Translations under genes and position numbers: made by a program
Origin: an uncultured bacterium
GTDB taxonomy: Bacteria; Hydrogenedentota; Hydrogenedentia; Hydrogenedentales; CAILVY01
Assembly (NCBI GenBank): GCA_937951485.1
Contig: CALEDJ010000038.1
Span: 1-64,000, forward strand
Reading direction: 5' to 3'
DNA length: 64,000 bases
Part shown: in pieces, positions 1 to 6,213 of the stretch
How positions within the stretch are numbered: the stretch's first letter is position 1
How the letters are laid out: every line of letters starts with the position of its first letter
The notes under the pieces: generated by a model
Seen by the model: the letters and a program-made list of their open reading frames with translations, nothing else
What the model was told of the DNA's origin: nothing
The model's database searches: none

Positions 1-147
1 GAAGGCGAGGGCGAGGGTGAGGGCGAGGGCGAGGGCGAGGGCGAGGGTGAGGGCGAGGGCGAGGGAGAAGGCGAAGGAGAAGGTGAAGGCGAAGGCGAGG
101 GTGAAGGCGAGGGTGAAGGCGAGGGCGAAGGCGAGGGCGAAATTGAA
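1..147 (+). repeat. Hexanucleotide GAGGGC-type tandem repeat encoding poly(Glu-Gly)
   Basis: About 24 in-frame copies of a 6-base unit (GAG/GAA followed by GGC/GGT/GGA). The copies are almost pure GAGGGC at the 5' end and more diverged from base 61 on. The unit length keeps frame whatever the copy number, so slippage would change linker length without breaking the gene. The array may extend upstream of the window. Confidence 0.9.
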
Positions 148-468
148 TTTCACAGCGCCGATCAGAACGACGACAATAGAATCAGTCTGTCCGAACTACT
201 TCGCGTGATCCAGTTCTTCAACTCCGGCGGCTACCACTGCGCCGACCCGCCCGATGGCACCGAGGATGGATATGTGCCCGGCGCAAATCCCGCGCAACAT
301 GGCTGCGCGCCGCACGCCTCGGACTACAATCCGCAGGACTGGCAGGTTGACTTGTCCGAGTTGCTCCGCCTGATCCAATTCTACAACGCCGGCGGCTACC
401 ATGCGTGCCCCGACGCCGACCCGCCGACAGAGGACGGGTTCTGCGTCGGACTTCCACCGGTGAAATAG
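1..468 (+). CDS. C-terminal part of an (EG)n-linker surface protein with twin EF-hand-like C-terminal module (5' end outside window)
   Basis: The reading frame is open from base 1 and ends in TAG at 466-468, so only the last 155 residues are seen. The first 46 residues are at least 23 Glu-Gly dipeptides, a highly acidic flexible linker. A module of about 105 residues follows, made of two related halves. Each half has an Asp/Asn-rich EF-hand or dockerin-like loop (DQNDDNR in the first, a degenerate DYNPQDW in the second), then LSELLRxIQF, then NxGGY and Cys. Almost the same module ends the large protein at 1159-6213, so it is a mobile C-terminal unit. A calcium-binding sorting or anchoring role outside the cell is my inference; no such role is proven here. 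The protein is probably secreted, but its signal peptide lies outside the window. A strong terminator follows. Confidence 0.85.
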   Translation, partial: EGEGEGEGEGEGEGEGEGEGEGEGEGEGEGEGEGEGEGEGEGEGEGEIEFHSADQNDDNRISLSELLRVIQFFNSGGYHCADPPDGTEDGYVPGANPAQHGCAPHASDYNPQDWQVDLSELLRLIQFYNAGGYHACPDADPPTEDGFCVGLPPVK

Positions 469-491
469 GGCCTCTATTCTATCCCGATTCC

Positions 492-545
492 GGGACCGGC
501 CCCGCCGTCAGGCGGCGCGCCGGTCCCTTCTCTTTGCTTTTCTTG
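492..545 (+). terminator. Rho-independent terminator of the (EG)n protein gene
   Basis: The perfect arms GGGACCGGC (492-500) and GCCGGTCCC (519-527) enclose a second small stem (CGCC/GGCG) and are followed by a T-rich tract to about 545. It lies 24 bases after the stop codon at 468. Confidence 0.8.
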
Positions 546-647
546 CCGTGGAGACCTTCGCATATACCGGCGCCGACTGGGTGCGAAAGGATATTTATGT
601 GAAAATATAGATGTGGGGAAGGCCAAAACAATAGATATAGAAAAGGG

Positions 648-676
648 TTGACAAATTATGAATCTTGCTGTACAGT
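648..676 (+). promoter_or_regulatory. Sigma70-type promoter upstream of the CSLREA fragment
   Basis: A perfect -35 TTGACA at 648-653, a 17-base spacer and a -10 TACAGT at 671-676 (4 of 6). It faces the fragment at 779 and, further on, the gene starting at 1159. Transcription has not been shown. Confidence 0.55.
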
Positions 677-778
677 ACCGGTGGACGCGGGGGTAATCCT
701 GAGCGGAAATTCTGGCAGCGCTTCCCGCCTGGTGTCGAAAATGTCCCTTTCATTCAACCCACAGAAAGGCTGAGTTGA

Positions 779-1147
779 ATGTTGTGTTCTAGAAATATGG
801 AACAGATAGACATTTCTGTTGCCATGATTTTTTCGAATCTGTTTTCCCCTGGGATGGCGTCGAGTGTGGGCATTTACATCACCACCGAAGCGGATTCCGC
901 CCCGGGGTCGCTTCGGGAGGCTATGAATGAAGCGAATGCTGGGGGAACGCCGGCAATAATTCATTTTGAAATGCCGCCGGGGCAGACGGCCATGGCCATC
1001 AGGCCCGCCACCCCGCTGCCGGCCATTACGCAAAACGGCATCATCATCGAGGGCGAGGGGACGGGGGCCGTTGGAAATATCAGAGGACGGTTGTTGCCCT
1101 GGGCTGCCGTAGCAGACACAGGTGGATCACATAGGCATGGCCGATAA
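779..1147 (+). pseudogene. Truncated CSLREA-type (parallel beta-helix) protein remnant
   Basis: The 122-residue frame contains APGSLREAMNEANAG, then IIHFEMPP and LPAITQNGIIIEGEGTG. This is the pattern of the CSLREA region (SLREAI..AN, then I.F, then LP.I...I.I.G) that starts many secreted parallel beta-helix proteins. Family members normally continue for hundreds of residues. Here the similarity stops near base 1070 and the frame ends at 1147, just before the ribosome-binding site of the next gene. The N-terminus is not a convincing signal peptide. I read it as the stump of a gene lost by deletion or recombination, with its promoter still present at 648-676. A short functional protein cannot be excluded. 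Confidence 0.5.
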
Positions 1148-1158
1148 GGAGCGGACAT

Positions 1159-4100
1159 ATGTGTTTTTTGCATGATTCTCGGATGCGGCGGTCCTGGGCG
1201 TTGATGGCGCTCCTGGGATGTCTGATTGGGGTTTCGGCGGTCGCCCAACGCCCGCAGTTGAGCGAGTTGCGGACGTTCGATGCGGAACCCGGCGCATTCT
1301 TTGTTGACGAAGGCATATTGTACTTCGCAGGGGCTAAGGACGGCGCAAACAATGTCGAACCGTGGACAAGCGACGGAACACCCACTAGGACGATGCGGCG
1401 GGGCGATATCTGGGAAGGTCCTGGAGGGTCGCACCCTCATCAGTATGTATATGTGGGCTCGGATAGTTTTTATCAGGTGCGCATAGACCGGGTTTTTTTC
1501 GTCGCCGAAAACGTGTGGCAAAATGGGGCGGGCGGCGAAGGTCTCTACTGGCTCTATGCCATGCCCCGTGGCGGCGGGGCCCCCTATCGCTACTACACGC
1601 CGGATCATGATGTGGACCCACACTACTACAGCCGAGTGGCGTTTGGCGATGTCTCCGACCTGTACAGCCAATCTAATTCTGGTCTACTGGCCTTTGGCAC
1701 CTTTAAGGATTTCGCTCTGTTGGTGCCCATGATGGTCCTTCCTCCTTTCGGAGTCTATCCCTTCAAGGTACTTGTTACGACCATCAACGCAAGCGGCGCC
1801 GCACACGTCAGGGATATCACGCGCAGGCCGGTGGGCCGGTATGCCTTCTCTGCGAACGACGGGTCCCACGGACACGAATATGTCACCACCATGATTGTGA
1901 CAGATGAATATGGTAATGAATCATTGGGCCACACCGTTCATGATCTGCGGCCGGGCGCCGCGGGGTCGTCGCCGGAGTCGCTCATGTTTGTCCAGTTGGG
2001 AAGCGATGGCATGACGTTTTTCACGGCGAACGACGGGACGCATGGCCGGGAATTGTGGGTGGACCGTGGCGGGTCCAATATTCAGATGGTCAAGGACATC
2101 AACGCCGGCCTCTCGGGTTCGAACATCAGAGACATGAGCGGCCCATTGTACGGGTCCATCGTCTTTGCCGCGATGTCGGCGGAGTACGGATGGGAATTGT
2201 GGAAGAGCGACGGCACAGCGTCCGGCACGGTCCTGGTCAAGGACATCCGCCCCGGTAACCTGGGGTCTGCTCCCTATGGGATGTGCCTGGCCAAGTACGG
2301 GAGTTTTGACGCCGTATACTTCGCCGCGGACAACGGCAGCAACGGCACGGAGTTGTGGCGCAGCGACGGCACCCCGGGGGGGACGTGGCTCGTTAAGGAT
2401 ATCCGCCCCGGCGCGGCCGGGGCGGATCCGTCGGACTTCGTGGCCATGGGGGGCAAGTGCTATTTCACCGCGGACGCCGAGGGGGATGGGCGGCGGGAAC
2501 TGTGGGTCACCAACGGCTCCGACAGCGGCACCTACGTGGTTGCGGACTGGCTTCATGTGGGCGCGAGTCCACGCCAGTTGATCGCCGACGATCAGCGCAT
2601 GTACTTCACGGAAGGGAATACGCTGTACGCGTTCGACCCGGCCGGCACGCCCCCGCCCGCGGCGCCGTCGGGATTGTGGGGACGCGCTTTAACAACCAGA
2701 ACGATTCAGGTGGGCTGGAACGACAATTCCTCTGATGAATCTGCCTTCGTGTGCTACATCGGCAACGACGGACAGCCTCCCTCCAAAAAGGCCCAGACGC
2801 TGGATGCGGATGATACCTTTACGGTGATTTCCGGGCCATACGCGCCAAACACCAGGATAACGTTCAGCGTCCGTTCCGTGGCAGGCGAATTCGCCGATAT
2901 TCGCATGTGGAGTTACAGCCTGTGGCCTCCCGATCGCTATATCTCGGTGTGCACCCACGCGGAACTGCCCATTCCCGGTGTCAACGTGGTCAGCATTTAT
3001 CCACTCGAGGTGAACACGTATCACGCCGACGACACCTATGCATTCACCAATCCGCTGGGCTTCGACGACCAGCAATTGGTGAGCGGCTTTGCTTACGCAT
3101 GGAATATGATGCCTTCCTATACGTTCTCCGGCTCGGAACCGGTCTGGAACACGGAATACCTCTATGTCAGCCCGAACCGGGGTTCCGGAAGTTACTATCT
3201 CCATCTGCGGTCCGTGAACCGGTGTGGGGAGGCCCGGCCCGATACGGTCAGATTGGGACCCTATCACTTCGATTTTCAGGCGCCCACGGCGCCGGGCGCG
3301 CCGCTCGTCAGGCAAAACAGCGGCCTCGAAATGTACTTCGAGTGGACCGAGGCGACGGACAGTGGTTCGGGGATCGCGTCCTACGATTGCCAAATCGGCA
3401 CGACGCCGGGCGGCAACGACGTTTTCGACGGCAATGTGGGCAACACGCGCTATCACGAATTCACGGCGGTGGAAGGCGGTTCCTATCATGCCCGGGTCAG
3501 GGCGATTGACCACGCGGGCAACATCGGGCCGTGGTCCCCTCCCAGCCAGCCGTTCACCCTGTCGGAATTCGGTTCGCTACAGGTTACCATCAATCCGGTT
3601 CAGGTCAGGTTTCTGGGCGCCCAGTGGCGGCGCAAGGGCGCCTTCGAATGGCGCAACAGCGGCCATATTGAAACCCAGGTATGGGCCGGCAATCGTGTTA
3701 TCGAGTTCAAAGCGGTTCCCGGGTGGCTTAGCGCGGCGGACCAGACCGTGACCATATTGCCGGACACGCTGGCCACCGCGACCGGCTGGTATGCCGAAAA
3801 CGGCTATCTGACCGTGACCATCGAGCCGCCGGCCGCCGTTGCCGCGGGCGCGAAGTGGCGGTTGTGGCGGGACCCCCTCCTGCCGCAGGATTCCTGGAAG
3901 GACAGCGGCTACACGGACAGCCTTCCCCTGGGAAGTTACCTGATCGAGTTCAAGCCCGTGGCGGGCTGGAATACGCCCGATTCCATCGGCGTGACCATCT
4001 CCGGACCGGGCACGGTCGAGAGAACCGGCGTGTACACCGTGTCGAACACGGGATCGCTGCGCGTGGACATCTTTCCGACCGAGGCCGTCGGGGCGGGGGC

Positions 4101-6213
4101 CTATTGGCGGCGTAAAGGCACGGAGGACTGGCTGGGAGCGAGCCAGACCGAGAGCCTCGTGGCGGTCGGCGACCACATCATCGAGTTCAAGCCCATCGCG
4201 GGCTGGACGCGGCCGTCCGAGCAGAGTGTCACGGTCGCGCTGGGCCAAACCACCGTGGCGCAGGGTTACTACGAATTGAAGAGCGGGGCGTTGCAGGTCA
4301 CGCTGCTGCCGGCGGGCGCGGTGGCGGCTGGGGCGCAGTGGCGGCGCGCGGAACGGCTGCCGGACCCGGAAGAACTGGACTGCGTGAACATCGCCAGCAG
4401 CGACGTGCCCCAGACGTGCAACGGTTCCACCGCCATTTCGGTGCTGGAAATCACAGATCCGGGATTGATCACGGATATCAACCTGCACCTGGACCTCACG
4501 TGCGATGATAACAGTGACCTCGAAATCACCCTCTATGCCGTCACTGCGGGCCGGGAGGCGTTTCCCGTATACTGGGCAAGCGGGGCGAACATGCACGACA
4601 CCATCTTTGACGAACAGGCGGCGATCCCCCTTGCCGATGGTACCGCCCCCTATACGGGAGCCTTCCGTCCGGACTCCTCGTTCTCGGACCTGATCGGCAT
4701 CCCCGCCGCAGGCACATGGCATCTCATCATCACGGACTATACGGCGGCCCCGCCGGAATTTGCGACTGTCCTGAACAGTTGGAGCCTGTGCATCACGACG
4801 GACGAGATGGTGCTTCCGAAAGGCACTCCGGACGGCGCCGGGCCGTGGCGCGACAGCGGCGTCACGGAAACCGACGTCCCCGTGGGCGCCTACCGACTCG
4901 AGTTCAGCCCCGTGGCGGGTTGGACAGCCCCCGAGGATATGATCGTAACCGTCGCCCTCAACGCGACGACCGAGGAGACGGCCGAGTACGCACAGACAGG
5001 CGCGCTGACGGTGACTCTGTTTCCAGTCGGTGCGGTGTCCGCCGGGGCGCAGTGGCGTATCGCGGACGCAGTGACATGGAACAATACCGGTGAAACGATT
5101 TCGAACCTGGAAAACGGCTTCTACGAGGTCGAGTTCAAGACGGTAAGCGGCTGGAACACGCCTCAAAATATCATCGTCGCTGTGCTTGGCGGCGTCAATA
5201 CCCAGGCCGAAGGGGTGTATATCGCCCACACCGGCATGATCCAGGTCAGCATCACGCCTGCTGCCGCGGCGAACGCCGGGGCGAAGTGGCGGCGCACGGA
5301 CGGCGCATCGTGGTTCTCGAGCGGCGATATTGAAGAAGTGCCCTTGGGCGCGTACACCATCGAATTCTCCGATATTGTCGGCTGGACCAAACCGTCGAAC
5401 CAAACCGTCACCATCTCCAGCCAGGGTCAGATTGTCACCCTCAGCGCCGCCTATACCGGCGGCTGTTCGCCCTATTTTGCAGAGGATACACCGCTGCCCC
5501 TTGTCGCGGCGAACACGTTGATCAGCGAACTGACCATTGCCGAGGAGGGCTATGTCCAGGATGTCAATGTGCTGCTCGATATCACTTGCAACAGCACTTC
5601 CGCGCTGGATGTGCGGCTGGAAAGCCCGATGGGGACAGAGGTGATCCTCTTCTCCGAATTGGGCCATGACGGGCAGGACTTCGAGCAAACCGGCTTTGAC
5701 GACAGCGCGGCAATAAGCATCTTCGACGATTTCGCGCCCTACAGCGACATCTATATCCCGCAAGAGCCGCTTGCAGCCTTCAACGGCGAGGCGGTCGCCG
5801 GCGTCTGGATGCTCAAAGTCACCGACCTGTCCGGCGGCATCGTGGGCAGTCTGAACGGCTGGCTGTTGTGCATTGCCGCCGCCGAAGATGTGGAAGCGTT
5901 TCACAACGCCGATCAAGACAGAAACAACCGCATCAGTCTGTCCGAATTGCTGCGGGTGATCCAGTTCTTCAATTCCGGCGGCTACCACTGCGCCGTTCCC
6001 TCCGACAGCACCGAGGACGGTTATGTGCCCGGCGCGAATCCCGCGCAACGGACTTGTATTCCCCATGCGTCGGATTACAATACCCAGAACTGGATAATCA
6101 ACCTGTCCGAATTGCTGCGTTTGATCCAGTTCTACAACGCGGGCGGCTATTACGGCTGCCCCAGCGAAGGCACGGAGGACGGCTTCTGCGTCGGGCTGCC
6201 GCCGGGAGGGTGA
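1159..6213 (+). CDS. Large secreted mosaic protein: ELW repeats, FN3, PEGA-like repeats, two P-domains, EF-hand-like C-terminal module
   Basis: A protein of 1684 residues. The ATG at 1159 has AAGGAG 7 bases upstream. Residues 9-29 form a signal peptide (RR, hydrophobic core, VSAVA). Residues 290-475 hold hyalin/ELWxxDGT-type repeats with phrases such as ELWKSDGT and LVKDIRPG. Two fibronectin-III-like domains lie near 498-580 and 707-800. Six repeats of about 75 residues follow from 805, with the pattern AGAxWRR, then SG, then VPxGxYxIEFKPVxGW, resembling PEGA domains. The fourth is split by a proprotein-convertase P-like domain (about 1075-1215). A second P-like domain covers about 1435-1575. 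The C-terminus is the twin LSELLR module also found at 150-468. It is probably a cell-surface or extracellular adhesive protein; no catalytic domain was recognised. It is transcribed towards the enolase-like gene. Confidence 0.9.
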   Translation: MCFLHDSRMRRSWALMALLGCLIGVSAVAQRPQLSELRTFDAEPGAFFVDEGILYFAGAKDGANNVEPWTSDGTPTRTMRRGDIWEGPGGSHPHQYVYVGSDSFYQVRIDRVFFVAENVWQNGAGGEGLYWLYAMPRGGGAPYRYYTPDHDVDPHYYSRVAFGDVSDLYSQSNSGLLAFGTFKDFALLVPMMVLPPFGVYPFKVLVTTINASGAAHVRDITRRPVGRYAFSANDGSHGHEYVTTMIVTDEYGNESLGHTVHDLRPGAAGSSPESLMFVQLGSDGMTFFTANDGTHGRELWVDRGGSNIQMVKDINAGLSGSNIRDMSGPLYGSIVFAAMSAEYGWELWKSDGTASGTVLVKDIRPGNLGSAPYGMCLAKYGSFDAVYFAADNGSNGTELWRSDGTPGGTWLVKDIRPGAAGADPSDFVAMGGKCYFTADAEGDGRRELWVTNGSDSGTYVVADWLHVGASPRQLIADDQRMYFTEGNTLYAFDPAGTPPPAAPSGLWGRALTTRTIQVGWNDNSSDESAFVCYIGNDGQPPSKKAQTLDADDTFTVISGPYAPNTRITFSVRSVAGEFADIRMWSYSLWPPDRYISVCTHAELPIPGVNVVSIYPLEVNTYHADDTYAFTNPLGFDDQQLVSGFAYAWNMMPSYTFSGSEPVWNTEYLYVSPNRGSGSYYLHLRSVNRCGEARPDTVRLGPYHFDFQAPTAPGAPLVRQNSGLEMYFEWTEATDSGSGIASYDCQIGTTPGGNDVFDGNVGNTRYHEFTAVEGGSYHARVRAIDHAGNIGPWSPPSQPFTLSEFGSLQVTINPVQVRFLGAQWRRKGAFEWRNSGHIETQVWAGNRVIEFKAVPGWLSAADQTVTILPDTLATATGWYAENGYLTVTIEPPAAVAAGAKWRLWRDPLLPQDSWKDSGYTDSLPLGSYLIEFKPVAGWNTPDSIGVTISGPGTVERTGVYTVSNTGSLRVDIFPTEAVGAGAYWRRKGTEDWLGASQTESLVAVGDHIIEFKPIAGWTRPSEQSVTVALGQTTVAQGYYELKSGALQVTLLPAGAVAAGAQWRRAERLPDPEELDCVNIASSDVPQTCNGSTAISVLEITDPGLITDINLHLDLTCDDNSDLEITLYAVTAGREAFPVYWASGANMHDTIFDEQAAIPLADGTAPYTGAFRPDSSFSDLIGIPAAGTWHLIITDYTAAPPEFATVLNSWSLCITTDEMVLPKGTPDGAGPWRDSGVTETDVPVGAYRLEFSPVAGWTAPEDMIVTVALNATTEETAEYAQTGALTVTLFPVGAVSAGAQWRIADAVTWNNTGETISNLENGFYEVEFKTVSGWNTPQNIIVAVLGGVNTQAEGVYIAHTGMIQVSITPAAAANAGAKWRRTDGASWFSSGDIEEVPLGAYTIEFSDIVGWTKPSNQTVTISSQGQIVTLSAAYTGGCSPYFAEDTPLPLVAANTLISELTIAEEGYVQDVNVLLDITCNSTSALDVRLESPMGTEVILFSELGHDGQDFEQTGFDDSAAISIFDDFAPYSDIYIPQEPLAAFNGEAVAGVWMLKVTDLSGGIVGSLNGWLLCIAAAEDVEAFHNADQDRNNRISLSELLRVIQFFNSGGYHCAVPSDSTEDGYVPGANPAQRTCIPHASDYNTQNWIINLSELLRLIQFYNAGGYYGCPSEGTEDGFCVGLPPGG

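Follow-up and report, generated by a model that had tools for sequence, protein, structure and literature searches.

A two-fold symmetric module on secreted proteins of Hydrogenedentota that may act as a dockerin-like docking plug

Type I dockerins (PF00404) are compact modules of 60-70 residues, built of two tandem calcium-type F-hand loops that are each followed by a helix and arranged with two-fold symmetry. They are carried by multimodular secreted proteins and are found most often at the C-terminus. Internal symmetry is usual but not universal among dockerins, and those that are internally symmetric bind cohesins in two orientations (PMC5429695). The DNA described here (the window, 64,000 nucleotides of contig CALEDJ010000038.1) belongs to an uncultured member of the Hydrogenedentota, whose genome will be called G000; the window is G000:C38:1-64000 and the contig begins at its first base. 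It encodes two copies of a module of about 95 residues which shares with the type I dockerins the paired loops and helices, the internal symmetry and the mostly C-terminal place on multimodular secreted proteins, and which also occurs beside cohesins and fused to them. Many secreted proteins carry this module, cohesins are recurrently fused to it and dockerins take its place in related bacteria, which makes it, with somewhat better than even confidence, a dockerin-like docking module that recruits secreted proteins to the cell surface. In the literature searched, no paper was found that connects a dockerin or cohesin system with the Hydrogenedentota.

In the window both copies stand at the C-terminus of proteins encoded on the forward strand. 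Copy 1 (145-465, about 105 residues, recognized at 148..459 by its match to copy 2) ends a gene of which only the 3' part is present (1..468; the open reading frame, ORF, is open at the first base and 155 residues are visible), and on its N-terminal side lies an (EG)n linker of about 47 residues (1-141). Copy 2 (5896-6210, located at 5899..6210, residues 1581-1684, by the genome search and modelled with AlphaFold) ends a secreted protein of 1684 amino acids (aa) (1159..6213, an ORF) and adjoins a P_proprotein domain (PF01483, residues 1467-1571, 5557..5871). The initial annotation had described nearly identical C-termini of about 105 residues on these two ORFs, the second of them behind a P-domain, with an Asp/Asn loop, SELLRxIQF(F/Y)N and GGY in each half and with Cys residues. 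All of this was borne out, the copies being 79% identical over 104 aa (E 1e-61 in the pairwise comparison and 5e-54 in the whole-genome search).

The module is made of two quasi-symmetrical halves that can be aligned with each other (52% over 50 aa, E 3e-11). Among 194 unique full-length copies, on which the conservation and Cys statistics are based, the mean identity of the halves at 20 positions was 68% within a copy and 61% between copies. Loop 1 fits the ligand pattern in nearly all of them (D1 100%, N/D3 89%, D/N5 97%, E12 100%), and loop 2 is a 13-residue variant, longer by one residue, with its D conserved in 100% and its E in 99%. Both halves carry the helix motif E-L-L-R-x-I-Q-F-(Y/F)-N, of which R and Q are 94-100% conserved; R19, Q22 and N25, together with R69, Q72 and N75, reach 90-100% across the collected copies. 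C31 and C48 are both present in 188 copies and both missing in 5, with a single mixed case, and the corresponding numbers for C82 and C90 are 139, 54 and one. This covariation predicts two disulfides per module, C31-C48 and C82-C90, one closing the first hairpin and the other, in most copies, the second. In the AlphaFold2 model of 5884-6210 (pLDDT 93.2, pTM 0.84) each half consists of a loop, a helix and a beta-hairpin, the helices being placed at 19-30 and 74-86. The first six Foldseek matches of this model were all dockerins, but with E above 1, and all nine entries listed by VIA-align were dockerins (Z 2.0-3.5). A sequence search of solved structures returned nothing significant.

No family of Pfam or NCBIfam covers the module. 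Neither window copy matched Dockerin_1 (PF00404) at E up to 1, and true dockerins of the same phylum do score on this profile, as exemplified by a protease of genome G033 with 41.9 bits. The two tandem F-hand loops, each followed by a helix, are present, as far as calcium loops can be read from sequence, and the recognition helices show the internal two-fold symmetry of dockerins. The same helix motif in both halves would allow binding in two orientations. The module differs from type I dockerins in its two covarying disulfides and the beta-hairpin behind each helix, in a Glu at loop position 12, where dockerins have Asp, in its longer second loop, in the SELLRxIQFYN helix and in its size. As it agrees with Dockerin_1 neither in profile nor in size, we class it not as a dockerin but as a separate, new module with a probably dockerin-like mode of action. 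As in the EF-hand families (PF00036, PF13405 and PF13202), the loop of the first half follows the canonical D-x-[ND]-x-[DN]...E pattern, and the module is predicted to bind one or two calcium ions. However, the isolated window module reached at best 22.5 bits on these profiles (cut-off 25), and it departs from an EF-hand in the missing E-helix ahead of the loop in the model, in the 13-residue second loop and in the additional hairpins and disulfides.

When the whole G000 assembly (4.55 Mb, 77 contigs) was searched, 37 copies of the module were found, which is far above chance, and nearly all of them are on unrelated proteins with a signal peptide. The hosts include CHRD, lactonase, PhoPQ-related, GLUG and InlB-like repeat proteins, M14 and C25 peptidases, a trypsin-like protease, Kelch/PKD, LRR/Ig, P-domain and pectate-lyase-like proteins, and cohesin proteins. 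By a simple heuristic, 123 of the 134 hosts with a complete N-terminus begin with a signal-peptide-like stretch; among the remaining window ORFs, taken as control, 15 of 35 do so. The module is C-terminal in 31 of the 37 cases, directly behind the signal peptide in 5, and in an apparently decayed ORF in 1; this last copy (L072, G000:C16:90125-90412) has a degraded motif and sits in a 164-aa ORF without a signal peptide, probably a decaying gene. The first impression that the module always ends the protein was thus mistaken, the more so as internal copies exist in other genomes. Likewise, the (EG)n run noted ahead of the module is correct for copy 1 and is not a general rule, a run of at least eight E/G being present in only 67 of the 134 hosts. 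Matches to Pfam TrAA12 were rejected as low-complexity artefacts of (EG)n.

Among the 68 Hydrogenedentota genomes searched 41 have the module, and 11 of these are module-rich (at least 18 copies; families f1, f3, f7 and f8 and genus g30). The ten module-rich genomes besides G000 hold from 18 to at least 75 copies each on unrelated hosts, several of them at least 36. In low-copy genomes its main hosts are a V8-like protease (about 850 aa) and a protein that contains a cohesin. The distant copies lie inside their hosts, with another domain on either side; for families f4, f5 and f10 these neighbours are an 'IPEPGxxLYGxV' and an 'LGLxExLPxGW' domain (L267-L270, L282). The module was absent from all 318 genomes examined outside the phylum, and the best 80 matches of a wider contig scan were all from Hydrogenedentota or from uncultured metagenome-assembled genomes of the same set. 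The family is probably confined to the Hydrogenedentota. An origin from a phage or mobile element was considered and dropped, as no relative was present among the IMG/VR viral contigs.

Cohesin domains above the Pfam cut-off were detected in 50 of 60 relatives, and fusions of a cohesin with the module in 26 of the 41 module genomes, including 10 of the 11 that are module-rich. The usual fusion is a protein of 241-399 aa in which a signal peptide is followed by the cohesin and, a few residues later, by the module, the layout of an adaptor scaffoldin with one cohesin. Fusions scored above the cohesin (PF00963) cut-off of 24.1 bits in G047 (25.9) and G001 (29.3), as did the module-cohesin-PKD protein L089 of G000 (27.7), and the N-terminal domains of the divergent f10 and f11 fusions matched the cohesin alignment in a profile comparison (probability 98.8%, E 9e-17). 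Among low-copy f10 genomes, with 1-6 modules, fusions are present in 13, the expectation being 0.4-1.4 from a crude null in which modules land on random secreted proteins, the number of these being assumed. Three cohesin proteins are encoded together with two dockerin proteins, a small one and a larger one of the dockerin/TSP3 type, in a conserved group of genes. One of these cohesins ends in the module in f1, f3 and f7, and the others have C-terminal transmembrane segments; the module-less f5 has a comparable group in which the module is missing (L136). The fusions and the membrane cohesins resemble scaffoldins, those in which a linker leads to a transmembrane helix and a basic tail at the C-terminus recalling the anchoring ones. 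They differ in having one cohesin per adaptor, in the lack of a glycoside-hydrolase theme and in the presence of the module where a type II or III dockerin would be.

Several features of these cohesin loci were observed in passing. The C-terminus of the small dockerin proteins of the gene group (about 160-190 aa; L132-L137, L141, L143, L144) is conserved and resembles RYLYRLTSNAPP. Almost all Hydrogenedentota genomes have a gene for a protein of about 380-450 aa in which a signal peptide and a cohesin are followed by a long disordered linker and then, at the C-terminus, by a transmembrane helix and a basic tail (L300, L302, L304, L305). In further cohesin proteins (L145:4105-4809, L133:1869-2729, L135, L137) the C-terminus consists of a Gly/Cys-rich motif (GCFGG or CGC) with a hydrophobic stretch and a basic tail behind it, an arrangement similar to CTERM sorting signals. 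Large proteins with repeated EF-hand units that start with CPLPDDP adjoin cohesin genes (L134:3-1784, L301:1727-5398, L076), and the one of G000 bears the module.

The module and the dockerin seem to replace each other on homologous proteins. A V8-like protease of G033 that ends in a Dockerin_1 domain shares 57.6% identity over 283 aa with a module-bearing protease of G000, the Kelch hosts likewise have dockerin-bearing counterparts, and the PEGA-like part of the 1684-aa protein of the window has one with 40.8% identity over 240 aa. At the level of genomes, eight members of f5 have 11-81 dockerins and no module, the dockerin lying at most 9 residues from the C-terminus in the 24 f5 ORFs examined, and the 11 module-rich genomes have 0-9 dockerins each. 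None was found in G000 either by Pfam or by a phylum-specific model. Mutual exclusion by simple count is not significant (Fisher p 0.22) and was therefore used only together with the host-swap evidence.

In the favoured reading the module would be a mobile and detachable plug on secreted proteins, working as a dockerin does. An acidic and flexible (EG)n spacer would set it apart from the rest of the protein in about half of the hosts, and by binding a surface receptor the plug would keep its host at or close to the surface of the cell. The direct fusions of a cohesin to the module could then be adaptor scaffoldins. Both the docking function and the surface location are what we infer from these data. 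That the receptor is itself a cohesin, such as those with a linker and a transmembrane helix in nearly all these genomes, is a tentative proposal, to which we give a little less than an even chance. We regard as equally tentative the wider proposal of a new family of docking plugs that replaces dockerins, by which a surface receptor, either cohesin-based or new, takes up dozens of unrelated extracellular proteins, the cohesin-module proteins serve as adaptors and different lineages use either plug on homologous proteins. The initial annotation had expected that such a tag would recur in tens of copies per genome on unrelated proteins with signal peptides, would be accompanied by a partner system, and would neither belong to a defined dockerin family nor be restricted to the two paralogues of the window. 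The host, cohesin and profile results agree with this in each respect, and docking or anchoring is thus well supported, the nearest folds being dockerins; the part of the same proposal that spoke of a secretion or sorting tag was not sustained.

A number of observations weigh against a dockerin-like plug with a cohesin receptor. The Z-scores of the structural neighbours are low, so that the model hints at a dockerin-like arrangement and is no proof of a shared fold, and a profile-profile comparison with dockerins aligned only 21 residues (probability 20%). Cohesins are few (2-8 per genome) compared with up to at least 75 modules, fusions were not found in several module genomes (e.g. G009, G003 and G007), and anchored cohesins also occur in module-less genomes. 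In most module-rich genomes true dockerin partners adjoin the cohesins, which consequently need not bind the module, and a cohesin-like protein of G000 with a hydrophobic, basic C-terminus scored only 19.3 bits, below the cut-off of 24.1. The exclusion between dockerins and modules is, in addition to its lack of significance, confounded by phylogeny, since the dockerin-rich genomes all belong to f5.

Some of these difficulties would disappear if the module bound an envelope polymer (glycan, LPS or S-layer) directly, as an SLH-like surface anchor. This is the main rival, although an unlikely one. In that case the cohesin-module protein would serve as an anchoring scaffoldin, with its module on the wall and its cohesin taking the neighbouring dockerin proteins, which accounts for the many clients and few cohesins and for a module-bearing cohesin that adjoins dockerin proteins in the cluster. 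The strong conservation of the helix motif can be explained by one invariant ligand, and the mostly terminal location, at either end of the protein, would also fit. However, the nearest folds are those of protein-binding dockerins, hosts exchange the module with dockerins, and the same motif is found on both helices as in dual-binding dockerins. These conserved helices, with R19/Q22/N25 and R69/Q72/N75, also exceed what would be needed by a passive calcium-binding stability cap, an EF-hand pair without a specific partner and spread by domain shuffling. The calcium-type loops, the sub-threshold EF-hand matches and the great diversity of hosts are compatible with such a cap, but the recurrent fusion to cohesins and the exchange with dockerins make it improbable.

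A sorting signal for a dedicated secretion or attachment machine (a type IX-like C-terminal domain, or a sortase or exosortase substrate) seems very improbable. The module is like type IX C-terminal domains in that it recurs, mostly C-terminally, on many unrelated secreted proteins, and one of its hosts is a C25 (gingipain/PorU-type) peptidase. Its N-terminal and internal copies nevertheless exclude a C-terminal sorting tag, no transmembrane helix or basic tail follows it, and SprA_N was above the cut-off in none of the 68 genomes, sortase and exosortase genes not having been searched for. The C25 peptidase was also considered as a PorU-like sortase and rejected; it occurs in 30 of 60 genomes and does not track the module. 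The enzyme of G000 (L088:55-3186, forward strand) has a propeptide, and its module lies right behind the signal peptide, though SprA is absent.

If the plug proposal is correct, the classic cohesin-dockerin plug has a second and differently built counterpart, which lineages can swap for it and which is used outside plant-biomass degradation. The Hydrogenedentota are hardly characterised, and the module offers a direct handle on how these bacteria arrange their proteins outside the cell. If confirmed, a symmetric docking pair of about 95 residues that is braced by disulfides could also serve as a new orthogonal tool for protein assembly.

The host of copy 2 (1159..6213) begins with a signal peptide, followed by ELWxxDGT repeats (TIGR04534, E 3.6e-75; best stretch at residues 385-430, 2311..2448, forward strand), by PEGA-like 'GAxWRRxG..W..SG' repeats and by two P-domain stretches (PF01483, E 5e-15), the forward-strand domain next to the module being one of them. 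As for the truncated gene of copy 1, contigs of G000 often break in or beside (EG)n coding repeats, as at window positions 1-141, which leaves many of the module genes cut off where a contig ends.

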